A stretch of 64,000 bases of DNA from Calothrix anomala FACHB-343 (lineage in GTDB: Bacteria > Cyanobacteriota > Cyanobacteriia > Cyanobacteriales > Nostocaceae). A model generated the notes under the pieces. The model had not been told where the DNA came from. It did not search any database and worked only from the letters and a program-made list of their open reading frames with translations. Both the position numbers and the translations under genes were made by a program. Position 1 is the stretch's first letter. Each line of letters opens with the position of its first letter. The stretch spans positions 29,915 through 93,914 of the forward strand of contig NZ_JACJQG010000031.1 of the NCBI RefSeq assembly GCF_014696435.1, given 5' to 3'. Shown here piece by piece: positions 41,039-64,000 of the stretch.

Positions 41039-41076
41039 AGTTGTTGTTATGTTGACGGTTGACGGTTGACGGTTGA

Positions 41077-45078: not shown

Positions 45079-46062
45079 ATGGGGAATAGTATTTCATTGG
45101 CAGATTATCAAGAATTGTGGATGCAATACAATCAAAATGCTAAACCAGCAGACCTATTAGACCCAAATGATGTTATCAACTTGTGTCCCAAACAACTAGG
45201 CCGTGGCTATGAACGTTGGATTGAATTAAGGGATATAAGTTTATTAATTATCGATACAGAATTTTATGATGATTTAATTCTTAACGGCACATCAGAAGAA
45301 GATTTTATTGAATGTTTAGAATTTGGTTTTCATTTATTAGGATACTGGAATGAAACTGATAGTGGACAAAATTTTCTTTTAGGTAGTGGTATATATAAAG
45401 ATAGACAATTACAAGTTTTAGGTCAGCAACGGCTTTTAAAAGTTGATATACATTTAGAATCCCCGGAATTATTAAATAGTTTTATTAGCAGTGATATAAA
45501 AAATTCGCCACAAACCCTGCAAAGAGTAATTGAGCCAAGCGAAGAACCCTATCGCCAAATCAGCCATACTACTCCAGAAATGAGGGTTGCACTGGAACAA
45601 ATTATTAATTGTCCCTTCACAGGGTTAACTAAGAAAATTTATCTAGAAAGTAAATGTTTAGAACTTATTGCTTTAAAAGTAGAACAACTAATCAACATTG
45701 AAAAAAGTTATACAAAAGCAATTGTTCTGCAACGAGATGATATTGCCAGAATTCATTATGCCAAGGAAATTTTAACGCAAAATCTCGATAATCCACCTTC
45801 CTTGCTAGAACTAGCGCGGAAAGTAGGATTAAATGACTACAAACTAAAATTAGGTTTTCGTCAAGTGCTGGGTACAACTGCATTTAGCTATTTACAACAA
45901 CAAAGAATGGAAAAGGCACGGCAATTACTCCTAGAAAGTAAGATGAGTGTTAAACAAATAGCGCGTGCTGTTGGTTATGCAAATCAAAGTCGTTTTGCTG
46001 CTGCTTTTCGCAAGCAATTTGGCACAAATCCTAAATCTTATGATTTGTTAATCAAAGCTTGA
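45079..46062 (+). CDS. AraC-family regulator, PchR-like
   Basis: A 327-residue transcription regulator. Residues 1-215 form the ligand domain typical of PchR-type proteins that sense ferric siderophores. The C-terminal AraC domain (about 225-327) has two helix-turn-helix units: PSLLELARKVGLNDYKLKLG and MSVKQIARAVGYANQSRFAA, the second ending in AFRKQFGTNPKSYD. It stands directly upstream of the TonB-dependent receptor gene in the same direction, and the spacer between them holds a 12-bp direct repeat (46104-46136) that is a good operator candidate. It probably activates siderophore uptake genes when the siderophore is present. Confidence 0.88.
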   Translation: MGNSISLADYQELWMQYNQNAKPADLLDPNDVINLCPKQLGRGYERWIELRDISLLIIDTEFYDDLILNGTSEEDFIECLEFGFHLLGYWNETDSGQNFLLGSGIYKDRQLQVLGQQRLLKVDIHLESPELLNSFISSDIKNSPQTLQRVIEPSEEPYRQISHTTPEMRVALEQIINCPFTGLTKKIYLESKCLELIALKVEQLINIEKSYTKAIVLQRDDIARIHYAKEILTQNLDNPPSLLELARKVGLNDYKLKLGFRQVLGTTAFSYLQQQRMEKARQLLLESKMSVKQIARAVGYANQSRFAAAFRKQFGTNPKSYDLLIKA

Positions 46063-46103
46063 TATCTGCAATTAAATACAGCTACTTGCTGTCAGACTAA
46101 CCT

Positions 46104-46136
46104 AAAAATCCGTTTCTAGCTCAAAAAAATCCGTTT
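46104..46136 (+). promoter_or_regulatory. Two direct repeats AAAAATCCGTTT, candidate PchR operator
   Basis: AAAAATCCGTTT occurs at 46104-46115 and again at 46125-46136, 21 bp apart start to start (two helical turns on one DNA face), about 106 bases before the receptor start. This is the expected geometry for an AraC-family activator with two HTH units per monomer. Confidence 0.6.
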
Positions 46137-46241
46137 GAGATTCACATAAGCCTTCAAAATCAAATCAATTCCATGTATCGTTGTTGAAAAAGATTCTTAA
46201 TTTAGGTGGCTAACAGCCGCTTGTGGTGTGGGATAAAGCTT

Positions 46242-48821: not shown

Positions 48822-48849
48822 CTTCTCAAGTCATTTGAGGGAAAATAAT

Positions 48850-49812
48850 GTGAACTGGCGGAAATTGCATTACTTATTACTCATCCTAACTTTGTTGATA
48901 GTTACTGCTTGTTATCGTCATTCACACCCGAACTTAGCAGATAAACAATCACCAGCATTAGAATGTCGATTAATTAAGCATGAATTAGGCGAAACTTGTG
49001 TTCCCCTGAACCCGCAACGCATTATTGTTGTTGACCAAATAGCATTAGAAGCTTTAGTAGCATTAGATTTAAAACCTATAGGAACAGCAAATCATGTCTT
49101 CTTTGACAGCAAAGTTAATCTTCTCAAAGACAAAATAGCAGGAATAAACTATATAGGAAAAACCGGAGAAATTAATCTAGAGAAAGTATTGCAATTAAAT
49201 CCAGATTTAATTGTTAGTGTTTATGGTATACAGCCAGCAAACTATCCATTATTGTCAAAAATAGCCCCCACAGTGCAAGTAAAACATTTTCAATCTGACT
49301 GGCAAACACCATTAAGAGAAATCGGTAAAGTTGTCAATAAAAGCGAAAAGGTTGAAGCATTACTCACTCAATACGAACAGCGACTTCAAACTATTAGAGA
49401 GCAATTAGAAAATAAATTTGGGAAAATAGAAGTGACTGTTAGCCGTATTCACGGCGGGATGAAAGTTCCTGAATTTAGTTCCCAATTTTCATTTGCTGGT
49501 GGTATTGTCCATGCCGTTGGAATATCTATGCCGCTTCATCAACGTCAGTTGATTAAAAGTCCTGATGATTATTTGATAATTCTAAGTCTAGAACGTCTAA
49601 ACTTACTTGATGCAGATGCTTTATTTATAGCTGTAGATCCAGGAGCAACAGAGGCTTTTCAAGAATATCAAAAGACTTCCCTGTGGCAAACGCTAAATGT
49701 AGTGAAAAATCAAAAAGTTTATCAAGTTGATTCTGGTTATTGGGTACATGGTAGCATCCTTTCAGCTAATGCTATTCTCGATGATTTAGTTAAATATCTG
49801 TTTAAAATATAG
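48850..49812 (+). CDS. Ferric siderophore-binding lipoprotein (FecB/FhuD type)
   Basis: A 320-residue periplasmic binding protein. The start is GTG at 48850, giving a lipoprotein signal peptide with lipobox LLIVTAC. The fold is the class III two-lobe type with a rigid helix: ETCVPLNPQRIIVVDQIALE begins lobe 1, INLEKVLQLNPDLIVSVYG is the conserved mid-part, and WQTLNVVKNQKVYQVDSGYW lies in lobe 2. It follows the receptor gene by 28 bases, so they are co-transcribed, and it delivers substrate to the FecCDE importer encoded at 40.2-43.1 kb. A second, broken copy of this type lies at 53997. Confidence 0.9.
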   Translation: MNWRKLHYLLLILTLLIVTACYRHSHPNLADKQSPALECRLIKHELGETCVPLNPQRIIVVDQIALEALVALDLKPIGTANHVFFDSKVNLLKDKIAGINYIGKTGEINLEKVLQLNPDLIVSVYGIQPANYPLLSKIAPTVQVKHFQSDWQTPLREIGKVVNKSEKVEALLTQYEQRLQTIREQLENKFGKIEVTVSRIHGGMKVPEFSSQFSFAGGIVHAVGISMPLHQRQLIKSPDDYLIILSLERLNLLDADALFIAVDPGATEAFQEYQKTSLWQTLNVVKNQKVYQVDSGYWVHGSILSANAILDDLVKYLFKI

Positions 49813-49850: not shown

Positions 49851-50084
49851 GTGGACTGACACAGCTAAATTAGTGCATTAGGTGTATGTTGGGTTGAGCA
49901 ACGCGAAACCCAACAGGGATAAGGGTGTTGGGTCTCATACTTCGACCCAACCTACTGGACTGACACGCCTAAAATGTTGCAATATAATTTTCTTGTGGGG
50001 TGGACATCTTGTCCGCCCAGGACGGGCGAGACGCCCATCCCACAAGAGTTTTCCTAATGCACTATTTTAGCTGTGTCAGTCCAG
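49851..50084. mobile_element. MITE with ~32-bp inverted ends flanked by TA
   Basis: The ends read GTGGACTGACACAGCTAAAT and, inverted, CTGGACTGACACAGCTAAAA, differing at few positions over about 32 bp, each flanked by TA (49849-49850 and 50085-50086), the target duplication expected for IS630/mariner elements. A third copy of the end lies inside (about 49951-49963). The interior carries a GTTGGGTT hairpin and a hairpin of type TTGTGGGGTGG...CCATCCCACAA. Confidence 0.8.
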
Positions 50085-50214
50085 TAGAGTGTGTTATCAA
50101 AACGTGTAACGCACCGAAAGCTTTGTGAGAGGTGCGTTACGGCTTACGTCTAACAAATTCTGCTGAGATTTTTTTCAGAAATCAAACTGGATTCCTATAA
50201 AGTAATTAATAGTT

Positions 50215-52068
50215 CTAAAAAATCCAATCTGCTTGCTCATCAGCTAAAATGTCTTCAAACTTCCCTTGAGCAACTACCCTACCAGCTTTCATCACAATAA
50301 TCTGGTCAGCGCGGCGTAAAACAGAACGACGATGAGACACTACTAAACAGGTTGGTGTCCAAGAATTTTCCTCAGTTGTATTAGCAAATATCCGCGACCA
50401 TAATGTCAATTCTGTTTCCACATCTAACGCGCTAGAAAGGTCATCAAATACTAACAATTCTGGCTGACGGACAAACATCCGCGCTGCTGCTACCCGTTGC
50501 ATTTGTCCACCAGAAAGGCGTACTCCTTTTGTTCCGACTAAAGTTTCGAGTTTCTCATTCATGGCTGCTAAGTCTTGCTCAAATACAGCCATTTTTAATG
50601 CTGTTTGAATATCAGCATCATCTTTAGATAATCCCAACAAGATATTTTCCCGTAGGGAATAACTGAAAAGTTGGGGAATTTGGGGAGTATATGCACTGCG
50701 AGGGGGTACGAAAAAATTAGCAGGGTCTACAACTAGATGATTATTCCAATAAATTTCTCCTGCTTGTTTGGGTAATAATCCTAATAATACTCTGAGCAAT
50801 GTAGTTTTTCCTGCGCCGATGCGTCCAGTAATGACAGTCAAACTACCGCGTTGTATTTGTAAGTTAATATCTACAATTCCTTGATTAGTACCAGGATAAA
50901 TATAAGTTAGGTTTGATAGGTTTAATGATTGTAAATTATGACTTGCATTTTCTATAGATTGTTCTAATTGAGGTAAGTTTTTTCTACTTTTACCCAATTC
51001 TGGTAAATAAAGTTGATTTGGAGCTACCAAAGTCTCTGCTGATGCACCAGAAATTAAATCAGCCATACGTTCAAAGGCAACTTCTGTTTGCTTATACAAT
51101 GCCATAAAGCCACCTACAGAGGCAAAAAAACCTGTGACAAAGGATAGGTTATAAACAAATAAAGCAAAGTCACCTACTGTTAATTGATTATCGCCGTTTT
51201 GCATCAAAAAAGAAGCCATCACTAAAATCAAACCTGTGCCAAAATTCACCATGTTTTGAAATAGTGAATTGAGAATGGCTTTTAGTAGACTGTCTTTAAC
51301 CATACTCTCGCGCCGCTTGTCATTTAAAGTGCGAAAATAAGTGAGGACATCTTGTTCTGCACCAGCAACTTTAATCGCTTGTACAGAACTAAATATTTCT
51401 CCTAAAATTCCGGTGACTTGTTGAGTTGCTTGACGGCTAGATTGGCGATATTTTTTAATACGTATTTCTGCTTTTTGGATAATTACTATCATTCCGACTA
51501 AGGGAAGGAAAACAAATACTGTCATGGGTACATTGACACTTAATAAAATTGCTAAAGAAAGAACAGCAAATAGTCCTTCGCCAAAGATTTCTGATACCCA
51601 TGCCACATTATCTTCAATGTGTTCTGCATCATCTCGAAAGTAGCTAATTACTTCACCTTGGGACACAGCATTTTCAATATCATCCTGAGTAACCTTAATT
51701 TGAGCATGAGGATTATTTAAGAGACGTTCTAATAAATTTCTTCTCAGTAATGACCTCATGGTGAAACGATGCTGAGTTTTGGTGATGCGTCCTATAAATA
51801 TCACCAAAATATGCCCTAAATTTAAAGCAATAAAACCTGCAATAAATGCCCAAGGTGATAAACCAAATTGAGCTTTACCTGTGAGACTATTAAAAAATTC
51901 GCGGATAATTAATCCAGGTAGGGCAGGTAAGCCCATAATAAAAATCCAGAAGCAAGTATCAATTAAGTAGAGTTTTGGTTTATAGCAAATTAGTTGCCAT
52001 AATAATTGCCAACCAGCAAGTTTTTTTGTTGATGAAATCATAATATTGGGGAATGGGGCATAGGGCAT
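50215..52068 (-). CDS. ABC exporter half-transporter with degenerate Walker B
   Basis: A 617-residue fusion of a six-helix membrane domain (residues about 20-330) and an ATPase domain (about 385-610). The ATPase has Walker A GRIGAGKTTLLRVL, Q-loop AYTPQIPQLFS and signature LSGGQMQRVAAARM, but Walker B reads LLVFDDLSSALD, with Asp where the catalytic Glu is normally found. The His switch is SHRRSVL. It is encoded 59 bases after another ABC half-transporter, and the two probably form a heterodimer in which one ATP site is weak. The position inside the siderophore locus suggests export of a siderophore or precursor, which is inference. Confidence 0.87.
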   Translation of the reverse strand: MPYAPFPNIMISSTKKLAGWQLLWQLICYKPKLYLIDTCFWIFIMGLPALPGLIIREFFNSLTGKAQFGLSPWAFIAGFIALNLGHILVIFIGRITKTQHRFTMRSLLRRNLLERLLNNPHAQIKVTQDDIENAVSQGEVISYFRDDAEHIEDNVAWVSEIFGEGLFAVLSLAILLSVNVPMTVFVFLPLVGMIVIIQKAEIRIKKYRQSSRQATQQVTGILGEIFSSVQAIKVAGAEQDVLTYFRTLNDKRRESMVKDSLLKAILNSLFQNMVNFGTGLILVMASFLMQNGDNQLTVGDFALFVYNLSFVTGFFASVGGFMALYKQTEVAFERMADLISGASAETLVAPNQLYLPELGKSRKNLPQLEQSIENASHNLQSLNLSNLTYIYPGTNQGIVDINLQIQRGSLTVITGRIGAGKTTLLRVLLGLLPKQAGEIYWNNHLVVDPANFFVPPRSAYTPQIPQLFSYSLRENILLGLSKDDADIQTALKMAVFEQDLAAMNEKLETLVGTKGVRLSGGQMQRVAAARMFVRQPELLVFDDLSSALDVETELTLWSRIFANTTEENSWTPTCLVVSHRRSVLRRADQIIVMKAGRVVAQGKFEDILADEQADWIF

Positions 52069-52127
52069 AGGGCATGGGGCAAAGGTAAAATATAATTTGG
52101 AATTTTGAATTATTTCCAGTCCCTTAC

Positions 52128-53894
52128 TTAAACTAATAAATCTGTTAAACCTGCTTGTAATAATTGAGCAAACCGTGAGTGGGAATTTTTGGCTAATGCT
52201 TCGCGTTCACCGTATTCACTGACTTTACCTTTGTCTAAAATTAAGATTTGATTAGCTCTTTCTACGGTGGCTAGACGATGGGCAATAATAATGGCGGTGC
52301 GTCCCATCAATAATTTATCTATAGCTTTTTCAATGAGTCTTTCTGTCATTGGGTCAAGACGTGAAGAGGCTTCATCGAGAATTACTAAGCCGGGGTTTTT
52401 GAGAAATACACGGGTAAAGGCTAATAGCTGCGCTTGTCCGGCTGACAAACCGCTACTATCTGGGCCTAAGTTGGTTTCTAAGCCGTTGGGTAAAGAGTGT
52501 AACCATTCTGACAAACCCAACATTTCTATTGTTTCATAGATGCGATCGCTAGTAATGTCATGGTTGAAAAAAGTCAGGTTATTGCGAACTGTGGTTTGAA
52601 ACAGCTGCACATCTTGAGTTACTAATCCGACTTTCCCCGGTAGTTCTTTGAGTGGGGTTTGGTCGATAGGTACACCCCCCAACCGAATTGAACCCAATTG
52701 TGGGTCATACAATCTCAAAAGTAATCGCGCTAAAGTAGACTTACCGCTTCCTGTACGTCCCAATAACCCCAACACCTGACCCGCAGGTAAATTAAAAGAT
52801 ACATCTTGCAATACTAAATCTTCAGTATCATTTCCCCGGTCATTGTAACCAAAACAGACATTCTCAACAGCTATTGAAAGCGCACCTGGAGGAATTAATT
52901 TTTCACCACCTGTATATAATTGAGATTGAACTTGCAACAAGTCTGTAATGCGGTAAATACTCGCATCTGCTTGCTGGAGGTCTTCAAATTGGTTACGAAT
53001 CTGTTCAATCGGTTCGCTGAGAATATTGGTGTAGTAATAAAGTAGGTAAACTGTACCGATGGTAATTGTCTGTTGACTCCACAGGTAAGCACCAACGATG
53101 AGAGCAATTACACTACCTAAAGTAAATATACCGTTGGTTGTTACCCAAAGAATTGTATCGGCAAAGCGGGCTTTATGAAAGATGGGTAGCCAGTTGCGAA
53201 TAATTGTATAGAAGCGGTGCATGACATAGTTTTTTGCACCATTAGCGCGGATGTCTTCCATCCCTGTTAGCTGTTCACCTAAGAAGCCAAAAAACTCAGC
53301 ACTGAATTGGCGATAACCTCCCCAATGGAAAACTGAGATGGTACGCAATTTAATCAGAGTAGATAAGGCGATGAGAGCAAACAATAAAATAGCTACACCG
53401 GCTCGCCAATCTTCTATAAACAGCACTACTATTACACCCAATACCATGAGCAAATTACCCAAGATGTGAATAGTAAATTTCGAGAAAAATTCTGATAAAT
53501 TCTGCACATCGCCGTCTATACGTTCGACTAATTCGCCTGGTGTACGGTATTTATGAAAGGATAAATCTAGTGTCAAACAATGCTCTACTAAATCTGCACG
53601 TAAGGCGTTAGTAGCTGTCCAAGCGACGTTTTCACCGTAGAAGGTTGCGGTAATTGTCATGAGTTGGGTAATTAAGGCGACAGCAATAAATAAAAAAGCT
53701 GCTAGGAATAATTTTTGGCGATCGCCTCCAGCTACAGCTGTGTCAATGAAATAGCGTAAAATCTGGGGGTTGAGGATTTGTAAGCCGATGCTGAAAAGAA
53801 GTGCGATCGCAAACTTCACTACTCTACCCTTTTGCGGCTTGAGGTAGTCTACAAGTAAGTTCCAGTATTGTTGTAGTCCGATTTTCATAAGCAC
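52128..53894 (-). CDS. ABC exporter half-transporter with atypical signature motif
   Basis: A 588-residue half-transporter and partner of the preceding gene. The membrane domain has six helices (about 20-310). The ATPase domain has Walker A GRTGSGKSTLARLL, Walker B LVILDEASSRLD with the catalytic Glu, and His switch IAHRLATV, but the signature is LSAGQAQLLAFTR instead of LSGGQ. Because each ATP site is built from the Walker motifs of one subunit and the signature of the other, this pair would combine the Asp-type Walker B with the altered signature in one degenerate site and keep one full site. It is the first gene of the two-gene operon, divergent from the chimeric gene at 53997. Confidence 0.87.
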   Translation of the reverse strand: MLMKIGLQQYWNLLVDYLKPQKGRVVKFAIALLFSIGLQILNPQILRYFIDTAVAGGDRQKLFLAAFLFIAVALITQLMTITATFYGENVAWTATNALRADLVEHCLTLDLSFHKYRTPGELVERIDGDVQNLSEFFSKFTIHILGNLLMVLGVIVVLFIEDWRAGVAILLFALIALSTLIKLRTISVFHWGGYRQFSAEFFGFLGEQLTGMEDIRANGAKNYVMHRFYTIIRNWLPIFHKARFADTILWVTTNGIFTLGSVIALIVGAYLWSQQTITIGTVYLLYYYTNILSEPIEQIRNQFEDLQQADASIYRITDLLQVQSQLYTGGEKLIPPGALSIAVENVCFGYNDRGNDTEDLVLQDVSFNLPAGQVLGLLGRTGSGKSTLARLLLRLYDPQLGSIRLGGVPIDQTPLKELPGKVGLVTQDVQLFQTTVRNNLTFFNHDITSDRIYETIEMLGLSEWLHSLPNGLETNLGPDSSGLSAGQAQLLAFTRVFLKNPGLVILDEASSRLDPMTERLIEKAIDKLLMGRTAIIIAHRLATVERANQILILDKGKVSEYGEREALAKNSHSRFAQLLQAGLTDLLV

Positions 53895-53996
53895 TCTTGT
53901 AAAAGCTGATGTCAGAATCAGTAAGCTGGCTAAAGCAAATATTTTTCAGCTAGCGATCGCATTTTAACCAAAATTGAAAGAGGAGAAAGTATTAAA

Positions 53997-54728
53997 GTGT
54001 ATCGTTACCTCAAATTATTATTGCTAGGGATTGTTACTATCGTCTTGCTATTAGTTTGTCATAGTAATATTTCGCAAAATGTAATTCAAGGTAATAATAA
54101 TTTATCTACATCTCCTCTTCCGGTCGCCACAAAAGTAATCAAACACGCTTTGGGTGAAACAAGAGTTCCCGTAAAACCACAACGAATAATTGTATTGAAC
54201 GATACTTGTCTTTTAGTCCCGGTATTGTCTTTGGGTATTAAACCAATCGGTACAGTAAGTTATTTTCCACAGTACGACTTTTTATTCCGTGGTGTAACTA
54301 ATGATGAAGCGGATGGTATCGAAATAGTTGGTACCGGAAATGAACCTAATTTATTTGTTTGTAAATCGTGCAGTGCTTTTCTCGATCGCGAAGAAGCAGA
54401 CGAGCGCGCTGAAGGAAATCAACTATTCCTGAAGTTGCTGGAAGCGCAAAAAAATCATTCCCCTGACAACATTCTCAATATTCAGCCTGTAGGGTGCTTG
54501 TGGAGTTGCGTGGAAAAACGCTCTTGTGTAGTAAGCTTTGTTTGTCGGCAAAAATATACATACCATGTTGTCGATCTGACAGAGGACAGTACAACTGATT
54601 TGTTGCAATTCAGCTTGCTTTATCAACAAAGTGAAGATGGATATGTGTTACCCGCTAAAATACCGGGGAAATTGCGATCGCACTTGTTAGCACGCATCCT
54701 TCCTACACCTGAGTCCATCCCAACCTAG
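53997..54728 (+). CDS. Chimera: siderophore-binding lipoprotein N-terminus fused to DUF1636 domain
   Basis: The 243-residue product has two origins. Residues 1-117 match the front of a FecB/FhuD-type lipoprotein: a signal peptide with lipobox-like VLLLVC (Cys21), then VIKHALGETRVPVKPQRIIV and a lobe-1 start ending at VGTGNEPNL. From about residue 119 the sequence becomes a DUF1636 domain: LFVCKSC, IQPVGCLWSC, SCVVSFVC and HVVDLTED, with Cys122, 125, 167, 171, 177 and 183. The rest of the binding protein is missing. The start is GTG at 53997 after a good AGAGGAG. If translated as written, a cysteine domain normally cytoplasmic would be sent to the membrane surface. It may be a deletion scar or a new protein. 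Confidence 0.8.
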   Translation: MYRYLKLLLLGIVTIVLLLVCHSNISQNVIQGNNNLSTSPLPVATKVIKHALGETRVPVKPQRIIVLNDTCLLVPVLSLGIKPIGTVSYFPQYDFLFRGVTNDEADGIEIVGTGNEPNLFVCKSCSAFLDREEADERAEGNQLFLKLLEAQKNHSPDNILNIQPVGCLWSCVEKRSCVVSFVCRQKYTYHVVDLTEDSTTDLLQFSLLYQQSEDGYVLPAKIPGKLRSHLLARILPTPESIPT

Positions 54729-55054
54729 TGTTTGTCAATATTTGATACTTGCATTGTTACATCCAGGGAGAGCGATCGCACCCTCCTAAAATCTGCATAG
54801 TTTTTAACTCGTAGAATAATTACTAAAAAATACTCTCAATTATTAAAGCATAACTCCTGCCAAAGCTTCGATATACTCCTGTGTTGTCAAATAAGACAAG
54901 CAAGCTAGAATGAAGGTTAACTGCAATATATCCCAGTTATCAGGGTAATTTGCCTAATTATCTGCGTAAGATATAAGTTTTTGCTTTTATTTACCTTGAT
55001 TTATCATTCTGTTTTAGTCTAAATGCGTTATCCTGCCTAGCTTACAGTGAATTT

Positions 55055-55067
55055 GAGAAAAATTCTC
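55055..55067. promoter_or_regulatory. Palindrome GAGAAAAATTCTC upstream of isiA
   Basis: GAGAA-AAA-TTCTC is a perfect inverted repeat 123 bases ahead of the isiA start, in a region expected to bind Fur. Confidence 0.35.
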
Positions 55068-55117
55068 TAGTTTTACTGACAAGAAATCTCAATTAATCTG
55101 ATAAGATAAGCTCGGAG

Positions 55118-55142
55118 CTTATTGAATATCTATCTCAATAAG
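55118..55142. promoter_or_regulatory. Inverted repeat CTTATTGA-9-TCAATAAG
   Basis: Perfect 8-bp arms with a nine-base spacer end 47 bases before the isiA start. It is either a repressor operator or a 5'-UTR hairpin controlling the antenna message. Confidence 0.5.
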
Positions 55143-55189
55143 TATTTTCACACCACAACCATTTCAAATCATTCTGAGGCGATGACACG

Positions 55190-56218
55190 ATGACGAGCAT
55201 GGCTGTGCAAACTCCAGACACAATCCCTTGGTGGTCAGGAAACGCTCGATTAACTAATCTTTCAGGGCGATTGTTAGGCGCTCATGTGGCTCATGCAGGC
55301 TTGATTGTACTGTGGGCAGGTGCAACAACTTTGTTTGAAGTTGCCCGGTTTCAAGCTTCTCAACCAATGTACGAGCAAGGCTTAATCCAGATACCCCACT
55401 TAGCAACCTTGGGTTGGGGAGTAGGTAGCGGCAGTCAAATTGTCGATACTTATCCATACTTTGTAATTGGAGTATTACACCTAATTAGCTCTGCTTTCCT
55501 CGGTTTGGGCGGAATTTTTCATGCACTCCGCGGCCCCGCCATTCTCGAAGAGAGATATTCCTTTTTTGGCTACAGTTGGCAAGATGCCAATAAAATGACC
55601 ACAATCCTGGGCATTCACCTGATTTTACTCGGTCTAGGAGCAGGCTTACTTGTTGCCAAAGCCGTCTTTTTTGGTGGTTTATACGACTCCAATTTAGGAG
55701 CAGTGCGAGTTATTTCTCATCCTACTTTGAACTTCTTCACAATATTTAGCTACCTAGTTGGTGGTCATAAATATTGGCTTGCGGGAGTCAACAACCTAGA
55801 AGACTTAGTTGGCGGTCATATTTGGGTAAGTATTCTCTGCGTTGCTGGGGGTATCTGGCACATTACCACCGAACCTTCAGATTTTGTCAAAGGCCTCTTT
55901 GTCTGGTCAGGAGAAGCATATCTTGCTTACAGCTTAGGTGCATTAAGCTTAATGAGTTTGATAGCGGCTTATTTTGTCTCCATCAACACCCTAGCTTATC
56001 CTGTAGAATTTTTTGGGACAGCATTGAGTATTGAATGCGATCGCTTCCCCTACTTCCAAAGTGCAGATTTACTATCCTCTCGCGTTTGGTTAGCAAATGC
56101 TCACTTTTGGCTGGGCTTTTTCTTCCTCCAAGGACATCTTTGGCACGCCCTCCGCGCTGCGGGTTTTAATTTCCGCACCGGTAAAGTTGAGCAATCCACT
56201 CGTGGAGAAGTAATTTAA
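55190..56218 (+). CDS. isiA: Iron-stress chlorophyll antenna protein IsiA (CP43')
   Basis: A 342-residue chlorophyll a-binding membrane protein with six helices, the standard length for IsiA. Features are the N-terminal [20 protein letters not shown], chlorophyll-ligating His residues such as those in [38 protein letters not shown] and GGHIWVSI, and the final [14 protein letters not shown]. It lacks the large lumenal loop of true CP43. IsiA forms rings around photosystem I under iron starvation and helps light capture and energy dissipation. It is the first gene of a cluster, two bases before a PsaL-fused paralogue, and the upstream palindromes suggest iron regulation. Confidence 0.95.
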
Positions 56219-56220
56219 CT

Positions 56221-57651
56221 ATGACTACAGCAACAATCACCCCCCAACAATATGGATGGTGGGCAGGTAACGCTAAGTTTATCAATCTCTCAGGACGGTT
56301 ATTAGGGGCGCACATTGCCCATGCTGGTTTAATTGTCCTTTGGGCTGGGGCAATGACCTTATTTGAAATCAGCAAATACAACCCCTCTCTACCAATATAC
56401 GAACAAGGGTTAATCTTATTGCCCCATTTAGCAACCCTGGGATTTGGTGTTGGTAATAGCGGACAAATCGTTGATACTTATCCCTATTTCGTCATAGGTG
56501 TAGTGCATTTAATCAGTTCGGCTGTACTTGGTGCTGGCGGTATTTATCACGCTTTGTTAGGGCCAGAAGTATTACCAGAAAATAATCAATTTCCCGGTTT
56601 TTTTGGTTATGACTGGGAAGATGAAGAGAAAATGACCACTATCATCGGCATTCACCTACTTTTATTAGGTTTAGGTGCTTGGTTATTGGTAGCAAAAGCC
56701 CTTTTTTGGGGTGGTCTTTACGATGTCAAAGTGGCATCTGTCAGAGTTATTTCTGACCCAACTCTTAACCCAGCACGAATTTTTGCTTACCTCTTTGGTA
56801 CATTTGGTAATCAAGGAATGGCGGCTGTCAATAACTTAGAAGATGTTGTTGGCGGTCATATTTGGGTAGGTATTCTTTGTTTTGGCGGTGGATTTTGGCA
56901 TATCTTCACTCAACCTTTTGCTTGGGCGAAAAAAGTACTTTTTTGGTCTGGTGAAGCTTATTTATCCTATAGTCTGGCTGCTTTAGCATACATGGGTTTC
57001 TTGGCAGCATACTTTGTCACTGTCAACGATACTGTTTATCCCACTGAGTTTTATGGGCCTTTAGGATTAAGCAGTGTATCAGGAGTAATTTCAGTTCGCA
57101 CTTGGTTAGCAAGTAGCCATTTTGCTTTAGCAATTGTGTTTCTCGCTGGTCATATCTGGCACGCTTTGAAAGTGCGTGTTCTCGCGGCTGGATTGGATTT
57201 TGCACAGGGAGTAGTTAACTATCTAGATACACCAGAATTAGGAAACCTGCAAACCCCAGTTAATACCTCTGATTTAATCTTAAAATTTTTGGGTAATCTT
57301 CCTATTTACCGTGCAGGCTTGTCGCCATTTTCTCGTGGTTTAGAAATTGGCATGGCGCATGGTTATTTTTTACTTGGCCCTTTCGTCAAATTAGGCCCCC
57401 TGCGGAACACAGAATTAGCTAATCAAGCCGGACTACTCGCAACAATTGCTTTGTTGTTGATTTTATCAATTTGTCTGTGGCTTTATGGCAGAGCATGGTT
57501 TAAACAAGGCACATCTCATCAAGGAGAGTTACCAGAAAATCTGCAAACAGCTAAGTCTTGGAGTGAATTTAATGCTGGCTGGATTATTGGTAGTTGTGGT
57601 GGCGCTTTATTTGCTTATTTACTAATCAGCAATAGCAGTTTGTTCTTCTAA
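56221..57651 (+). CDS. CP43'/IsiA-family antenna fused to a PsaL-like domain
   Basis: A 476-residue fusion. Residues 1-335 are a complete six-helix IsiA-type chlorophyll protein ([20 protein letters not shown], ending with [17 protein letters not shown]). Residues about 345-476 are PsaL-like: [40 protein letters not shown] and two to three more helices. PsaL is the photosystem I subunit that holds trimers together, so the tail could anchor antenna directly in the PsaL position of monomeric PSI. Such fusions are known from a few cyanobacteria with several isiA genes. The gene is two bases behind isiA and 28 bases before flavodoxin, clearly one operon. Confidence 0.92.
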
Positions 57652-57679
57652 CTTTTTCTTCTCAATATCAGGTGTAAAA

Positions 57680-58192
57680 ATGTCGAAAAAAATCGGTTTA
57701 TTCTACGGCACTCAAACTGGTAAAACAGAATCAGTAGCAGAAATAATTCGGGATGAATTTGGTGATAGTGTAGTGACATTACACGACATCTCCCAAGCGG
57801 ATACTGCTGATTTTGATGACTATCAATATTTAATTATTGGTTGTCCCACTTGGAACATTGGCGAATTACAAAGCGATTGGGAAGGCTTTTTTACCGAACT
57901 AGATGATATAGATTTTAATGGTAAGACAGTCGCTTATTTTGGTACTGGTGACCAGATAGGCTATGCCGATAATTTTCAAGATGCCATCGGAATTTTAGAA
58001 GAAAAGATTTCCCAACTTGGTGGCAAGACTGTAGGCTATTGCTCAACTGAAGGTTACGATTTTAACGAGTCTAAGGCTTTAAGAAATGGTAAGTTTGTCG
58101 GATTAGCAATTGATGAGGATAATCAATCTGATTTAACAGATGGGCGGATTAAGAATTGGGTATCTCAGTTAAAGAGAGAGTTTGGTTTGTAG
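57680..58192 (+). CDS. isiB: Flavodoxin IsiB
   Basis: A 170-residue long-chain flavodoxin that carries FMN and replaces ferredoxin as electron acceptor of photosystem I when iron is scarce. The FMN phosphate loop is GTQTGKTESVAEI (residues about 10-22), the isoalloxazine loops include PTWNIGELQSDWEGF and GTGDQIGYADNFQDAIG, and the long-chain insertion lies around STEGYDFNESKALRNGKFVG. The gene follows the two antenna genes in the order known for isiAB operons. Confidence 0.96.
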   Translation: MSKKIGLFYGTQTGKTESVAEIIRDEFGDSVVTLHDISQADTADFDDYQYLIIGCPTWNIGELQSDWEGFFTELDDIDFNGKTVAYFGTGDQIGYADNFQDAIGILEEKISQLGGKTVGYCSTEGYDFNESKALRNGKFVGLAIDEDNQSDLTDGRIKNWVSQLKREFGL

Positions 58193-58270
58193 TTTGAGTA
58201 GTTAAAGTTTTTTGTACCTGATGCTGAACCACAGATACACACAGAGAATTTTGTTTTTCAGAGCAAAATA

Positions 58271-58329
58271 ATACCAATTTGAAAACAAGCTCATAGTGAT
58301 ATCTAAAATTTTGAATTTTGAATTGGTAT
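58271..58329. repeat. Miniature inverted-repeat element, ATACCAATT ends (copy 3)
   Basis: A 59-bp element with exact inverted ends (58271-58279 and 58321-58329) between isiB and the hydrolase gene, of the same family as 14061-14156 and 35204-35305. Confidence 0.65.
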
Positions 58330-58387
58330 AAATTTGTATGTATTTGTGGTTTTGAAGTTGCTTAGTTTTTGAGGTTTGAGAGTTTTT

Positions 58388-59140
58388 ATGTCTGATGATA
58401 TTGATGTTGTGTGGGTCAGTTCTAGTACTGTATTGCAGCGTTTCGATCAACCGTTACTACAACATATATCGCAATATATGAATGTGGCTCAGTGGGAATA
58501 TCGTCACGGTAAAGATGAAGGTAGTTCGATAGATGAGGCTGTAAGTTTATTGCATGAGTATTTGTCAGAATGTCCCCATCCCATACATTTAGCAGGTCAT
58601 GGTGCGGGTGGTGCGATCGCTCTAATCTATGCAAGGCGCTATCCCCAAAAAGTGCGATCGCTCATTCTCCTAGCTGTCCCTTCTCGACCAGCAAATACTT
58701 GGCACGCCCACTACTATCTACAACGACAACTATTTACCATCAGTCGCGAACAAGTCCTAGCAATGAGTGTTCGTAATCTCTTTGGCGAACAACCACATTA
58801 CACTACTAAAAAGTTAATGGCAGTGTTAAATAAAGATTTAGAGCAATCTCCCTTATCTCATTCCCTATTCAAGTTAGTTGATTTACCTGAAGATGGGGTT
58901 TCTATGCCCATGATGATCTGTGGTAGCAAAAACGATTTAATTGTCAATTCTCCTGCCTTACTAGGCTGGTTAAAATGGTTTAAACCTGAAGATTATCTCT
59001 GGGAATGTCCAAAAGGACATCATTTTTTTCATTACTTCTATCCGCAAAAGGTCGGCGAACAAATGTTGAGTTTTTGGCAACCTTATCATCTACAACCAAC
59101 AATGCAATCTCAAATACTATCTCCAAATTTAATAAATTAG
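58388..59140 (+). CDS. isiC: IsiC-like alpha/beta-hydrolase with altered nucleophile elbow
   Basis: A 250-residue alpha/beta-hydrolase fold protein in the usual isiC position after flavodoxin. The fold is recognised by the strand-turn-helix IHLAGHGAGGAIALIYARRY, the acid region MMICGSKNDLIVNSPALLGW and a late His in CPKGHHFFHYFYP. The nucleophile elbow should read GxSxG, but residues 70-74 are GHGAG, with Gly72 where Ser is expected. The protein may therefore not be a classical hydrolase, or may act through another residue or as a binding protein. The ATG at 58388 gives the natural N-terminus. Confidence 0.82.
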   Translation: MSDDIDVVWVSSSTVLQRFDQPLLQHISQYMNVAQWEYRHGKDEGSSIDEAVSLLHEYLSECPHPIHLAGHGAGGAIALIYARRYPQKVRSLILLAVPSRPANTWHAHYYLQRQLFTISREQVLAMSVRNLFGEQPHYTTKKLMAVLNKDLEQSPLSHSLFKLVDLPEDGVSMPMMICGSKNDLIVNSPALLGWLKWFKPEDYLWECPKGHHFFHYFYPQKVGEQMLSFWQPYHLQPTMQSQILSPNLIN

Positions 59141-59532
59141 AAATTGTTTATTTAGGGGCGTAAATACACCCCTTATTAATTTATTAACTAGCTTGAAAAT
59201 AGTGTTGACTGTTGACTGTTGACTGTTGACTGTTGAATATTTTCATGCTTAATTGTGCCAAAACTTAGTGTGAATAACTAACTTAATAACAGCGACCAAA
59301 TTAGAATGTCGCCTTTTTTGTCGTGCTTAATTTTGTTTAATTTTTATTGTTAAGTTTTGTAAATAAAATAGATACATGAGAAATATATTCAATAAACTAA
59401 GTTTGTGTTCACCAAGCTCGGCAATTAACTTCAGCGATTTAAGTCTTATTAGATAATATTTCAGCTTTTATTGCTTGAAGTTAAGTAGTAAATATTTGAA
59501 TATTTCTCGCAATAACTTATAGAAGAGAACCA
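59141..59532. other. Spacer with heptamer repeats and probable promoter of the next antenna gene
   Basis: No gene. Five GTTGACT heptamers lie at 59202-59236, a candidate terminator follows, and an AT-rich region from 59330 to 59530 should contain the promoter of the third antenna gene. Confidence 0.55.
59292..59320 (+). terminator. Intrinsic terminator after isiC
   Basis: GCGAC (59292-59296) and GTCGC (59308-59312) form a short GC stem followed by CTTTTTTG. It lies 152 bases after the isiC stop, beyond a GTTGACT heptamer tract (59202-59236), and separates the first isi unit from the next antenna gene. Confidence 0.5.
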
Positions 59533-60567
59533 ATGCAGACATACGATAATCCCAACGTCAAATATGATTGGTGGGTTGGTAATGCCCGCTTCGCCGACCT
59601 CTCTGGCTTATTTATCGGCGCACATGTAGCACAAGCTGCACTCACAACCCTCTGGGCGGGGGCGTTTACATGGTTTGAAATCTCTCGTTACAAACCTGAC
59701 ATCCCAATGGGAGACCAAGGACTCATCTTGTTACCCCATTTAGCCACTTTAGGGTTTGGTGTTGGTGCAGGTGGTCAAGTAATTAATACTTACCCTTACT
59801 TTGTTATTGGTGCTTTGCATCTGATCTCGTCTGCTGTCCTGGGAGCCGGCGCACTCTTTCATACTTTTAAAGGGCCGCGCAACTTAAAAAACACTACTGG
59901 TTTTGCTCGTAAATTTCACTTTGAATGGAACGATCCTCAACAACTCAGTTTGATTTTAGGACATCACCTCCTGTTTTTGGGTATAGCAGCTTTATTGCTG
60001 GTAGGAAAAGCAATGTTTTGGGGAGGACTATACGACGCGACAATTCACGCTGTCAGAGTGATAAGTCATCCCACCCTCAACCCCTTGGTTATTTACGGCT
60101 ATCAAACTCACTTTGCTAGTGTGAACAACCTAGAAGATTTGGTTGGTGGTCATATCTATGTAGGTTTAATCCTCATTGGTGGCGGTATTTGGCATATTAT
60201 CAAAGAGCCATTACCTTGGGCGAAAAAGCTGTTAATCTTTTCTGGGGAAGCGATTCTTTCTTATTCTTTAGGTGGTATTGCCTTAGCTGGTTTTGTTGCT
60301 GCTTACTTTTGTGCAGTCAACACCTTAGCTTATCCTGTAGAGTTCTATGGTGCGCCCCTAGAATTAAAATTTGGTGTAACTCCTTATTTTGCTGATACAG
60401 TCAAATTAGCTAATGGTGGCTACAGTGCTAGAGCATGGTTAGCTAATGCTCACTTCTTCTTAGCTTTCTTCTTTTTACAAGGTCATCTTTGGCACGCGCT
60501 ACGAGCCATTGGTGTTGACTTTAGACAAGTTGAAAAGTCATTGAACGCCATTAGTAGTGCTGAGTGA
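59533..60567 (+). CDS. CP43'/IsiA-family chlorophyll antenna protein
   Basis: A 344-residue IsiA paralogue with six helices and the same conserved His positions ([46 protein letters not shown]) and ending [18 protein letters not shown]. The helix-1 motif is AHVAQA where isiA has AHVAHA, so one His (a possible chlorophyll ligand) is replaced by Gln. Otherwise it is full length. It is preceded by its own spacer of about 390 bases and may be separately regulated. It probably makes a distinct antenna layer or partners with the other paralogues. Confidence 0.92.
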
Positions 60568-61020
60568 ATCAATTTTGGATTTTGGATTTTGGATTTTAGA
60601 TAAAAATTTCCTCAATCAAAAATTTCCAATCTAAAGTTCGGTGATTTTGGATTGTAGATTTATTTCATGAATAAATTCGCTTGCTTCATATTCCCAGAGC
60701 GATATTAACCTATGAATATTCAATCCAAAATTTAAAATCTAAAATCTAAAATTTGACGTTCAATCCTCAGTTAACAGTTTTGCTCTCACTCTCTAAGTGA
60801 TAAGGATAAGGATCGGGTAAGCGTGCTGAGTCTATAAAATAGGACTTACGCACCGAACAAAAAAACCCTCACAAGGGTAGTCAAAAGTCAAAAGTCAATG
60901 GTCAAAATTCAAGTTTTTGGACTATGGACTATTGACCATTGACAAAAAGCATGAAAAATATCTGACACTGCGTAAGTCCTATAAAAAACTCAGCACTTTT
61001 CTAAAAATGATGAGGTAAAA
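60568..61020. other. Spacer with heptamers and a MITE
   Basis: No gene. It holds ATTTTGG heptamers (about 60570-60595), their inverted relatives near 60720-60755, and a 142-bp MITE (60840-60981). The promoter of the fourth antenna gene must lie in this altered region, perhaps within the MITE. Confidence 0.6.
60840..60981. mobile_element. MITE with 13-bp ends TAGGACTTACGCA
   Basis: TAGGACTTACGCA (60840-60852) is exactly inverted at 60969-60981. Both sides carry ATAAAA, consistent with a target duplication. The interior contains GTCAAAA heptamers and no gene. Confidence 0.8.
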
Positions 61021-61983
61021 GTGGCAATTTCTACTGATAGAACTTTTGCGGCAAATACACAATTACCTTGGTTAATTGGTAATACTCGTTTAACTGATTT
61101 ATCTGGTCAATTATTAGGCGCACATATTGCCCATGCAGGCTTAATTATGTTTTGGGCAGGAACAACTACCATCTCAGAAGTTGTGCGCTTTGTTCCTGAT
61201 ATCCCAATGTATGAACAAGGCTTGATTTTATTACCACACTTAGCAACTTTAGGTTGGGGAATAGGTGCTGGTGGTCGAGTAGTTGATACCTATCCCTATT
61301 TCGTTATTGGGATACTGCATTTAATTGCCTCGGCGGTTTTAGGTGCGGGAGGACTATTTCATGTGTTTCGCGCTCCAGTAATTTTATATAATAATGGTGG
61401 TAGAGCCGCGAAATTTCACTATGAATGGAATGACCCTAAACAATTGAGTTTAATTTTAGGTCATCACCTAATAATTTTGGGTTTAGGAGCATTTTTATTA
61501 GTACTTAAAGCCATGTTTTTTGGCGGCATTTATGACAGTCATTTAGGGGATGTACGCCTAATTAATAACCCCACTCTTAACCCAGTAAACATTTTTAGCT
61601 ACTTGGTAGGCTTTAAAGATGGTATTTGGAATATTTTAGGACTAGCCAGTGTAGATAATTTAGAAGATGTCATTGGCGGTCATATTTGGGTCGGATGCAT
61701 TTTAATTTTAGGGGGTATTTGGCACATTATTGTACAGCCATTTACTTGGGTTAGAAAAATATTACCTATAGAAAATGGTGAAGAAATTCTTGCTTATAGT
61801 TTGCTAGGATTAGCTTTAATGGCTTGGATTTCTGCTAGTTTTGTAGGATATAACACTACAGTTTTTCCACCGAAATTTTACGGTTCGCAACGTTTAGTAG
61901 CAGCAAACATACAATTTCTTCTAGGAATATTAGCTTTTTTAGGTTATGCTTGGCACGCTTGGAGGGCGCGTAGTATTACCTAA
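61021..61983 (+). CDS. CP43'/IsiA-family antenna protein, short and divergent
   Basis: A 320-residue paralogue, about 22 residues shorter than typical IsiA. The core is conserved ([65 protein letters not shown]), but the region after helix 5 is shortened and the end is [19 protein letters not shown], so one His near the lumenal loop is changed (FLGYAWHAW against LQGHLWHAL). The start is GTG at 61021 behind a GAGGTAAAA ribosome-binding region. It is the last antenna gene of the cluster and 118 bases ahead of a cysteine-rich membrane protein. Confidence 0.88.
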
Positions 61984-62101
61984 CTAATCATCTCCCATAA
62001 ACTCAACACCAGCTATTCTCAAGTTCCTTCCCCTGCCTGCGGTTAAAAACATTTGACTGTGGGCAATTTCCTAAAACTTTTTGTGGAGTAACAATATAGT
62101 G

Positions 62102-62401
62102 ATGGCTAGAATTTTCTATGCTTTATCTGCTTGGGTAATTATGATTTTATTGTTTTGTAGTATTTGGACAACTCTTAAAAAAGGGATAATTTTTCTGTGG
62201 CGATTGCATCAAATTCCTTGCCATAATTGTGAGTATTTCACTAATGATTATCGTCTAAAATGTACGGTATGTCCTAAGAAAGCTTGTTCGGAACAGGCGA
62301 TTGGCTGTATTGACTTTGAACCGAAAACTGCTGCTTGCAATGCTTGTCAAAAGGGGCGAATTTGGAAATTATATCAGGTTCGCCTGAATACTTACATCTA
62401 A
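62102..62401 (+). CDS. Membrane-anchored cysteine-rich protein of the isi cluster
   Basis: I do not recognise a named family. The 99-residue protein has one N-terminal membrane helix (about 4-36, with Cys19) and a cytoplasmic part with eight cysteines: Cys40-x2-Cys43, Cys54-x2-Cys57, Cys62, Cys69 and Cys79-x2-Cys82. The spacing would suit two Fe-S clusters or two zinc sites. A basic segment (KGRIWKLYQVRL) ends the chain, and the stop codon comes from a repeated segment shared with 40011-40060. It lies directly behind the antenna genes in the same direction and before a Fur gene, so an iron-sensing, iron-handling or electron-transfer role is a reasonable guess. Confidence 0.7.
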   Translation: MARIFYALSAWVIMILLFCSIWTTLKKGIIFLWRLHQIPCHNCEYFTNDYRLKCTVCPKKACSEQAIGCIDFEPKTAACNACQKGRIWKLYQVRLNTYI

Positions 62402-62449
62402 CATTTCATGCCCCCAATTGCGTAAGTAATGCTTGAAAAATGCGATCGC
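62396..62449. repeat. Copy of the EamA 5' segment
   Basis: AACATTTCATGCCCCCAATT, then a TAAGTAAT part and GAAAAATGCGATCGC, match 40011-40060. On the minus strand it still holds the ATG and first codons of the EamA frame, now abutting the cysteine-rich gene. The remaining bases up to 62585 show no gene. Confidence 0.75.
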
Positions 62450-62585
62450 CTTGAATGCATAACTTCATTTTCTGCCTCTAAACTATCAGTAACGATATCA
62501 AACCCTAATTATTTTGTTTAAAGAGAATCTGCAAGGATTGGTCTCAAAGACTTGTAAATATTGGCTTGTAAGTTTTAGGATGGGT

Positions 62586-63107
62586 CTAATGTAGTTGCTG
62601 ATGGTTTGAGCTTTTGGGTTTGTCTGTTTTCAAGAATCTAGGACATACCCAATTACTAGATATTGTCGGACATCCCCTCTGTAGAGCTTCTGGACAAATA
62701 GTTTGCAATGTGAATTTACAATCAATTAGTTGCAATCCCATTGTTTCTACTTGTTTTAATCCTTGTTGAATAATTGATTTATTTTCAAACTCTATAATCT
62801 GATGACATTGAATACACACAATATGGTGATGATGGATAGAGATGGTTTTGGGTTCGTAATGTTTTTGAGCCTGTGCCAATTCTACTTCTCGGATAATCCC
62901 TATGTTAGCCATGATTTTGAGGTTGCGATAAACCGTAGACAAACTCATCACTTCTCCACGTTCAAACAGCAACAAATGTACTGATTCAGCATTTAAATGA
63001 TTACCAGTTGGCAGAGTTTGAAAAATCTCAAAAATTAATTGACGTTGAGGAGTCAATCGATAACCTTGAGTATTTAATTTGGCTTTTAAGGTTTTAAAAT
63101 TATCCAT
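62586..63107 (-). CDS. fur: Fur-family transcriptional repressor
   Basis: A 173-residue metal-dependent repressor. The winged-helix DNA-binding domain covers residues 1-80 (LNTQGYRLTPQRQLIFEIF and MSLSTVYRNLKIMANIGI), followed by the dimerisation domain with metal ligands His83 (KHYEP), the His cluster 92-95 and Cys98-x2-Cys101. The second structural Cys motif is Cys138-x7-Cys146 (CPEALQRGC) instead of the usual CxxC, so the zinc site is either rearranged or incomplete. A C-terminal tail of about 30 residues is extra. The ATG at 63107 fits better than the codon at 63122. Its place at the end of the isi cluster suggests local control of iron or peroxide response; Fur, Zur and PerR cannot be told apart for certain. 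Confidence 0.88.
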   Translation of the reverse strand: MDNFKTLKAKLNTQGYRLTPQRQLIFEIFQTLPTGNHLNAESVHLLLFERGEVMSLSTVYRNLKIMANIGIIREVELAQAQKHYEPKTISIHHHHIVCIQCHQIIEFENKSIIQQGLKQVETMGLQLIDCKFTLQTICPEALQRGCPTISSNWVCPRFLKTDKPKSSNHQQLH

Positions 63108-63202
63108 AAATACAGCTTCCAAAAAATCTGTCAGTGCTGGTAAAACTGCTAATAAAAGTTGTGTAAGACAAGCCTGTAATTATCAAAAATAGTTAGAAAG
63201 TA

Positions 63203-63763
63203 TTAATAAATCCCAGACTGTACGCGCCACAAACTGGCATAGATACCATCTAATGCTAGTAAATCCTCGTGCTTACCCTGCTCAACAATTTGACCATCAT
63301 CCATCACATATATGCAATGACTGTGGCGAATTGTGGAAAGACGGTGAGCGATCGCAATGGTTGTACGATTTTGTGTAATCATCGCCAGTGAGTTCTGGAT
63401 AGCTGCTTCCGTCTCATTATCCACCGCCGAAGTCGCTTCATCTAAAATCAGAATGGGTGGATCTTTGAGAATCGCACGCGCTATGGCAATTCTTTGTCTT
63501 TGCCCACCTGAAAGCTTTTGACCCCGTTCGCCCACAATTGTGTCATAGCCCTGGGGCAGTTGCTCGATAAACTCATGGGCATAAGCTAACTTGGCAGCAT
63601 GAAGAATCTGTTCACGAGTGGCATCGAAACTGCCATAACAAATGTTATCAGCAACCGTACCGTGAAATAAAAACACATCCTGACTCACCCAACCAATACA
63701 GCGCCGCAAATCCCATAAATTGAGGTCGCGGATATCAATGTCGTCAATTACAGCAATTTTCAA
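63203..63763 (-). pseudogene. ABC exporter, ATPase C-terminal part, cut by an IS630 element
   Basis: About 185 residues of an ABC ATPase domain begin at [16 protein letters not shown], with Q-loop [10 protein letters not shown], signature [15 protein letters not shown], Walker [13 protein letters not shown] and His switch AIAHRLSTI. Walker A and the entire membrane domain are absent because the gene meets the end of an IS630 element at about 63763. The remaining part may lie beyond the window. The type is the ABCB-like exporter family. Confidence 0.85.
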
Positions 63764-63815
63764 GTAATTAAACCACAGACTCAGGTAGACTGAAAAGACA
63801 GCATAGTTTAAATAG

Positions 63816-64000
63816 ATGCCAGTATCGTACTCAAAGGATTTGCGTGAGCGTGTGATTATGGCGTATGTTGCAAAAGAAGGATCTCAACGTCAATTGGCGC
63901 AAAGATTTAAGGTCAGCTTGTCATTTGTGCGAAACCTACTGCGTCAGTATCGAGCAAATGGCGAAATCGAGGCGAAACGACGTGGAGGATACCAAAAGCC
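63816..64000 (+). mobile_element. IS630-family transposase, 5' part (continues past window)
   Basis: The frame from ATG 63816 reads [20 protein letters not shown] and then [20 protein letters not shown], the N-terminal HTH of IS630 transposases, and stays open to the window end. The element's left terminus is between 63764 and 63815, next to the truncated ABC exporter. Confidence 0.85.

Follow-up and report, generated by a model that had tools for sequence, protein, structure and literature searches.

The 64,000-nucleotide window analysed here (the whole stretch of Calothrix anomala FACHB-343 DNA under study) contains, between positions 55190 and 63107, a cluster of iron-starvation (isi) genes built around four paralogous chlorophyll-antenna proteins of the IsiA (CP43') family. 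The reading that we favour, with a probability of about 0.68, takes the region for the extended isi cluster of heterocyst-forming cyanobacteria, complemented by a Cys-rich membrane protein that would act as a chlorophyll helper and adjoined by a bystander Fur gene from a siderophore-type locus. A first-pass annotation had described the region as a self-contained iron-starvation module with a local Fur, making a tailored antenna for photosystem I (PSI). The iron-starvation set and its tailored antenna are in print for orthologues (PMC9938196), while the self-contained character and the local Fur found no support in this genome.

The reported genes and their order are borne out by a check of the open reading frames (ORFs), and Pfam and NCBIfam searches agree that four CP43'-type antenna paralogues run in one direction with isiB and isiC between them; many of the loci fetched from relatives likewise have isiC placed after isiB and before isiA1. 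The Fur gene placed at the cluster end is indeed present, but ORFs and an alignment with relatives put it on the minus strand and show it to be shortened at its 3' end. The genes are as follows.

55190..56218, plus strand: isiA3-type antenna protein (CP43' family), 342 amino acids (PDB 9zjt_2 end to end, Thr46, tree)
56221..57651, plus strand: isiA2, the IsiA-PsaL fusion, 476 amino acids (PF00421 and PF02605, 7y3f_1/9zjt, tree group 100/98)
57680..58192, plus strand: isiB flavodoxin (NF006736, flavodoxin FldA, above cut-off)
58376..59140, plus strand: isiC alpha/beta hydrolase (PF00561 above cut-off)
59533..60567, plus strand: isiA1, classical IsiA, 344 amino acids (7y3f_4 over 344/344 residues, Phe45 and Trp47, group 100/100)
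61021..61983, plus strand: isiA5-type antenna protein, 320 amino acids (9zjt_3 over 319 residues, Thr49, group 100/100)
62102..62401 from ATG, plus strand: small Cys-rich membrane protein with one helix, the isi-linked representative of a cyanobacterial family
62586..63107 from ATG, minus strand: Fur-family regulator, 3'-shortened (PF01475, tree clade 100/97)

Identity of the antenna proteins

The four antenna proteins all pass the NCBIfam cut-off of the IsiA/Pcb model TIGR03041, the 320-residue protein barely so (336.8 versus 335), and none reaches that of the full CP43 (psbC) model TIGR01153 (scores of 325-410 versus a cut-off of 603). The split between IsiA/Pcb proteins and CP43 has been ascribed to a missing lumenal loop (PMC12090762). 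Besides the four isiA-type genes, the genome carries a single psbC gene elsewhere. In the fusion protein the PsaL domain PF02605 is C-terminal, covering residues 331-473 (Pfam, E 2.8e-60), and the protein aligns with PDB 7y3f_1/9zjt over 476/476 residues; the other three antenna proteins align end to end with 9zjt_2, 7y3f_4/9zjt_4 and 9zjt_3, one chain each. The residues published as markers of the paralogues, namely F45/W47 for IsiA1, M45 for IsiA2, T46 for IsiA3 and T49 for IsiA5 (PMC9938196), were counted by eye on the ORFs and identify the antenna genes, in order, as IsiA3, IsiA2, IsiA1 and IsiA5. The phylogeny that had been proposed as a check distributes the four proteins over four separate groups of a 43-row tree, supported at 100/98 (IsiA2), 81/81 (IsiA3), 100/100 (IsiA1) and 100/100 (IsiA5), with the IsiA3 subclade of 8 rows that holds the window's protein at 91/93. 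By a count made by eye, the full-length IsiA-PsaL fusion occurs in 37 of the 145 genomes of the host family, Nostocaceae, the host's own included.

In Anabaena all four IsiA proteins are found in the PSI complex from iron-starved cells, where IsiA2 replaces PsaL and holds PSI monomeric; the published map of this complex places IsiA1 and IsiA2, leaves three subunits unassigned, and is accompanied by the observation that energy reaches PSI in 55 ps (PMC9938196). Induction of isi genes on iron starvation is in print for Anabaena (PMC9938196), Trichodesmium (PMC12090762) and Synechocystis. Clusters with several isiA genes had been said to be known from cyanobacteria, and one with four such genes and the fusion is on record for Nodularia (PMC3610870). 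Since the Anabaena complex and the Nodularia cluster of 2013 are both in print, the central idea of the first-pass annotation is correct but not new.

The Rfam model RF01419 (IsrR) matches all 4 of the isiA genes at 113-145 bits, and the control psbC gene (L002) scores higher, at 170 bits. Because the antisense strand of psbC matches better than that of any isiA gene, the score reflects conserved coding sequence; the matches were consequently rejected as evidence for IsrR antisense RNAs in the four isiA genes, RF01419 matches alone being insufficient to call IsrR.

The Cys-rich membrane protein belongs to the isi set

The gene that follows isiA5 had been described as coding for a membrane protein with eight clustered Cys, and so it does: one hydrophobic helix, recognised by eye, is followed by eight Cys residues which, numbered from the ATG, are C40, C43, C54, C57, C62, C69, C79 and C82, and a ninth Cys lies inside the helix. 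C57 of the window's protein is not conserved, being His or Asn in 12 of 13 aligned relatives. By contrast, all 14 aligned sequences, one distant paralogue included, retain H36, P39, C40, C43, F46, N48, C54, P58 and C69, and 55 isi-type sequences share 18 invariant columns, among them C40, C43, C54, C62 and C69. The protein has no sequence match in Pfam (E 0.01), NCBIfam (E 0.01) or PDB (E 1).

The linkage of this gene to isiA was counted over 80 named loci, the best 80 of the 190 found for the protein; 74 of these had room for the count, and isiA fragments were accepted. An IsiA-family match is present somewhere in the locus (flanks of up to 8 kb) in 75/80, and in 71/80 an IsiA-family gene or fragment of the same orientation lies upstream at a distance of at most 1.5 kb, the nearest upstream gene being IsiA5 at 53 of the loci. 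In Nostocaceae as in Microcoleaceae, the Cys-rich gene occupies the same cluster end, and in one locus outside Nostocaceae (L238) a relative comes after isiB and isiC. The Cys-rich membrane protein is thus a true member of the isi set, as the first-pass annotation had supposed. In a limited search of the open-access literature, no mention of its place in the isi cluster was found. In several decayed isi clusters (L110, L112-L115, L176) the gene persists next to isiA remnants; the copy in L112, where isiA5 is a fragment, carries an internal stop. A single clade for all isi-type Cys-rich proteins is unsupported in a tree that rests on few columns and has long branches.

The host genome and other Nostocaceae carry paralogues of the isi-linked gene. 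In 5 of the 7 loci inspected first, the paralogue is preceded by chlG, the chlorophyll synthase gene (TIGR02056 above cut-off). Among the matches listed, it stands directly 3' of chlG and on the same strand in 82/120 rows, corresponding to 82/100 Nostocaceae genomes, and the host's own paralogue (C92) is one of these chlG-linked copies; none of the 69 higher-scoring, isi-type rows listed is directly 3' of chlG. The six chlG-linked copies that were examined have the four core Cys and are without C62, C79 and C82. In Synechocystis, a complex of ChlG with YidC, Ycf39 and Hli proteins couples the delivery of chlorophyll to membrane insertion (PMC6175206).

Linkage and conservation are direct observations, from which we infer a function and, with it, any interaction or bound metal. 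On the strength of the chlG linkage, the conservation and the ChlG-YidC complex, we propose that the isi copy serves under iron stress as an isoform of a small membrane protein whose gene is linked to chlG, and that it would help in chlorophyll delivery or in assembly.

The Fur gene and the siderophore-type flanks

The view of the Fur gene as a part of the module is unsupported in this genome: the isi genes have no neighbouring Fur match in any of 39 loci fetched from other Nostocaceae (L049-L087, at most 19 kb each, some of which reach contig ends), the window's Fur falls in a siderophore-type clade, and its 3' end is missing at the junction. The clade, supported at 100/97 in a 40-row tree, unites it with the Furs of siderophore-type loci; rows of fewer than 130 residues (L098 and L203 among them) and the distant L206, L213 and L215 were kept out of this tree, and the latter three are included in a separate Fur tree. 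An identification of the window's Fur as FurA was rejected, the host's own FurA-type gene (G000:C97, L188) lying across a 100/100 split. The C-terminal stretch of about 75 residues present in four examined relatives (L088, L090, L091, L092) is absent from the window's protein. Close relatives, with 75-87% identity, give long matches in 3 of the other 144 Nostocaceae genomes and a partial one in a fourth, in these draft genomes never on the contig of the isi genes. A further Fur copy (G010, C45) carries an internal stop.

The relatives' loci have a characteristic gene content: exporters stand beside fur in L088-L092 and L098, matches to FecB and/or DUF1636 occur in L088, L091, L092 and L098, and L092 also holds a TonB receptor and an AraC regulator near fur. 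To judge from these genes, such accessory-Fur loci may handle siderophores. Comparable genes lie on both sides of the isi cluster of the window.

50215..53894, minus strand: pair of ABC exporters, left flank, like the pair directly beside the fur relative in L088, L090 and L098
53997..54728, plus strand: ORF with a short FecB-like N-terminus joined in frame to DUF1636 (PF07845, residues 119-234)
63203..63763, minus strand: ABC exporter, C-terminal part only, adjacent to fur (Pfam; contiguous with fur in L089 and L091 by blastn, nearly so in L092)

When window positions 50000-64000 were compared by blastn, the sister locus L049 matched only 54772-62371, the piece with fur and the exporter (62588 to 63748 or 63750) matched L089 and L091 at 83%, and the exporter pair (50246-53889) matched L090 and L098. 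In L088 fur is followed by two exporters on one strand (exporters 45% and fur 87% identical), and the window has an L088-like order with the isi cluster and the FecB-DUF1636 ORF lying between fur and the exporters. The two parts of this ORF are separate neighbouring genes in L088 and L092, and its N-terminal 110 residues alone have no Pfam match. Further to the left, 40232-49812 holds a ferric-siderophore-type uptake locus with two FecCD permeases, an ATPase, an AraC regulator, a TonB receptor with an AMIN domain, and a FecB protein. Given the blastn joins, the FecB-DUF1636 ORF and the uptake genes at 40-50 kb, the isi cluster is flanked on both sides by a siderophore-type region, and the Fur gene adjoins the cluster because the latter lies between genes of that region. 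The window's Fur is therefore most likely a bystander that belongs to the siderophore-type locus.

Fur genes beside isi clusters in other lineages

In 12/80 named loci, from Microcoleus, Tychonema, Kamptonema, Lyngbya and others, the Cys-rich gene is directly followed by a Fur gene of the same orientation, with 33-174 bp between match ends; the same arrangement recurs in 6/30 loci of a second set, some genomes of which may coincide with those of the first. In 2/80 named loci (Calothrix PCC 7716 and Dulcicalothrix) a Fur gene of opposite orientation is located upstream of isiA1. The isi-side Fur is additional to a second, full-length FurA-like gene in 4 of 5 genomes examined (G145, G146, G148, G150); in G147 the second FurA-like gene is cut short.

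That the window's Fur shares a lineage with the Furs linked to isi in Microcoleus and Tychonema was rejected by the tree and by the approximately unbiased (AU) test, in which joining the window's Fur or its clade with the 3' group gave p 0.0002 and 0.0014. Joining its clade with the 5' group was likewise rejected (p 0.0019). Because the three Fur groups are separate, a Fur gene has come to lie beside isi genes at least three times on this tree, and since a different Fur occupies the same cluster end in other lineages, the idea of a local Fur fits there. In a limited search of the open-access literature, no mention of a Fur gene beside isi was found. In two loci (L107, L108) FeoB, 3' of the isi cluster, is seemingly split into N- and C-terminal parts in neighbouring ORFs, Pfam recognising the two parts in L108 and the C part in L107.

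Cluster promoter and candidate operator

The region upstream of the first gene was aligned over 15 sequences, the window and 14 Nostocaceae loci whose first gene is at least 75% identical. Two elements were recognised.

55102..55107, plus strand: putative -10 element of the cluster promoter (context TCTGATAAGAT); CTGnTAnnAT in 15/15 aligned upstream regions
55118..55142, no strand: operator candidate, a perfect 8-bp inverted repeat CTTATTGA-N9-TCAATAAG, just 3' of the -10 element

The arms of the repeat are perfect in 5/15 regions, the window included, and TTATTGA follows the -10 element in 13/15. A matrix built without the window's site scores 35.6 at the candidate operator, versus at most 19.6 in 20 shuffles, a high score that is unsurprising because the site is orthologous. 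The transcription start site (TSS) published for Nodularia, which lies 83 nt before the first gene (PMC3610870), maps 0-9 nt past the -10 element, the range being set by which start codon is meant. The conserved repeat after the -10 element would be in a good position for an operator, and FurA may bind there. A search with the published FurA consensus over 8 regions returned nothing significant; a looser AT-rich repeat lies upstream of isiA1.

Alternative explanations

For the Cys-rich protein, a fuller scheme would be that in filamentous cyanobacteria these proteins deliver chlorophyll or assemble antennae, a housekeeping copy being made together with chlorophyll synthase and an iron-stress copy, with extra Cys, together with IsiA, Fur having been recruited independently in several lineages; we hold this fuller scheme tentatively, with the odds running against it. 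The protein could instead be anchored in the membrane to bind a metal or act in redox chemistry, with a Zn or Fe/S site made by the four Cys shared across the family; it would then sense iron or the redox state, or aid PSI assembly, and play no direct part in chlorophyll delivery. C40, C43, C54 and C69, invariant even in the distant paralogue and retained in the chlG-linked copies, would suit such a role, as would the addition in the isi type of C62, invariant in all 55 sequences, and mostly also of C79 and C82; yet the place beside chlG in Nostocaceae is then left unexplained, and no metal site can be assigned because the protein has no relative in Pfam, NCBIfam or PDB. We regard this alternative as possible, if somewhat doubtful. 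That the gene is a passenger, kept by chance or through promoter sharing, is improbable: it is short, and in L112 its internal stop coincides with a fragmentary isiA5, but its constant place in two families, its 18 invariant columns and its recognisable persistence beside isiA fragments in L115 and L176 all speak against idle carriage.

A self-contained module, with the local Fur recruited as the regulator that acts on the isi operator, could point to the fact that Fur is the next gene, with a FUR domain above the Pfam cut-off, and to the different Fur paralogues that two further lineages have next to their isi clusters. Against it stand the 39 loci of other Nostocaceae without a Fur match beside isi, the opposite strand, the order with the ABC exporter as in siderophore-type loci together with the shortening on the isi side, and a genome (G025) that has this Fur and, besides psbC, no IsiA-fusion match at E 1e-60; such recruitment is quite unlikely here.

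Some results weigh against the reading that we favour. The Anabaena genes all4000-all4003 go up with peroxide and down after a nitrogen step-down (PMC4518582), so their control is not through iron alone. The best upstream match to the FurA consensus (PMC4005646) is 14/19 at 55079, not significant against shuffles (p 0.067). As for chlG, 38/120 Nostocaceae paralogue rows among the matches listed are elsewhere or on contigs where chlG was not found, and outside Nostocaceae the linkage is nearly absent (1/61 genomes, 82 rows). The isi-type Cys-rich rows do not form one clean clade (3 tree changes; AU 0.0144 against monophyly). In L090, whose exporter pair is the nearest in sequence (72-78%), fur is at the opposite end of the pair, so the flanks do not simply represent the two halves of a single locus. 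Finally, the surroundings of isi clusters show no general enrichment in iron-uptake genes (6/57 loci versus 1/20 control windows), and a general link between the two is unsupported; this count covered the loci of at least 14 kb (57 of the 80) and dropped generic ABC, FecE and AraC matches below 40, 40 and 35% identity, respectively, and matches covering less than 25% of the query.

Proposed mechanism

Under the favoured reading of an extended isi cluster with a chlorophyll helper and a bystander Fur, iron shortage would de-repress the promoter upstream of isiA3, most likely as the housekeeping regulator FurA leaves the conserved repeat. IsiA2, as in print for its orthologues, would take the position of PsaL in PSI by means of its PsaL domain and keep PSI monomeric, and IsiA1, IsiA3 and IsiA5 would form the remaining antenna, again by analogy with published orthologues, of which IsiA3 and IsiA5 are in the complex and unplaced in the first structure. 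Flavodoxin would substitute for ferredoxin, as is established, and the Cys-rich protein might help to load chlorophyll into the new antenna proteins or to assemble them. The adjoining Fur would regulate the siderophore-type locus, the junction having presumably removed the end of its gene.

Comparison with known systems

The nearest described counterpart is that of Anabaena sp. PCC 7120 (IsiA1, IsiA2, IsiA3 and IsiA5; 7Y3F, 9ZJT), with which the window shares four one-to-one antenna paralogues, PsaL fusion included. The Anabaena isiA tags, all4000-all4003, are gapless (PMC4518582), whereas the window has isiB and isiC between its isiA genes; as far as locus tags alone can tell, this suggests that isiB and isiC are not between the isiA genes of Anabaena. 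The available excerpts of the published accounts of Anabaena isiA do not mention the Cys-rich gene. Nodularia spumigena CCY9414 (nsp37450-nsp37510, PMC3610870) has the same antenna genes, isiB, the hydrolase and the fusion, and its locus (L059) has the Cys-rich gene at the same cluster end as the window; in the 19 kb of this locus, neither the Fur nor the exporter pair nor the FecB-DUF1636 ORF of the window has a match.

The clusters of Leptolyngbya JSC-1 and Trichodesmium, isiA2-isiA3-isiA4-cpcG2(-isiA5), resemble the window in having several isiA-type genes and a PsaL fusion and in being iron-regulated, and differ from it in the presence of cpcG2; the isiA1 and isiB genes of Trichodesmium have distant locus tags, unlike those of the window (PMC12090762). 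In Synechocystis, isiA-isiB-sll0249 has ssl0461, an iron-induced small-protein gene, alongside, a likeness to the window that concerns gene place only, as does that between ssl0461 and the Cys-rich relative of L238.

Other features of the window

One insertion interrupts the cluster, and the alignment with the sister locus L049, where it is missing, jumps window positions 60840-60978.

60839..60982, no strand: insertion between isiA1 and isiA5 that resembles a miniature inverted-repeat transposable element and has perfect terminal inverted repeats of 14 bp

At the right end (63764-64000) the exporter gene breaks off near an ORF that, by eye, starts like a helix-turn-helix transposase; its 47 residues have no Pfam match, and the contig ends exactly at the end of the window.

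Significance

Antenna remodelling under iron starvation was already known; what is new here is a conserved, unnamed gene in the isi cluster with a concrete lead to chlorophyll synthase. The lead bears on the delivery of chlorophyll to IsiA under iron starvation, when much new antenna is made; if the fuller scheme of two copies holds, the iron-stress copy would steer scarce chlorophyll into the PSI-IsiA belt. The Fur paralogues found repeatedly by isi clusters are, for their part, a testable sign of a shift from global to local control in some lineages.

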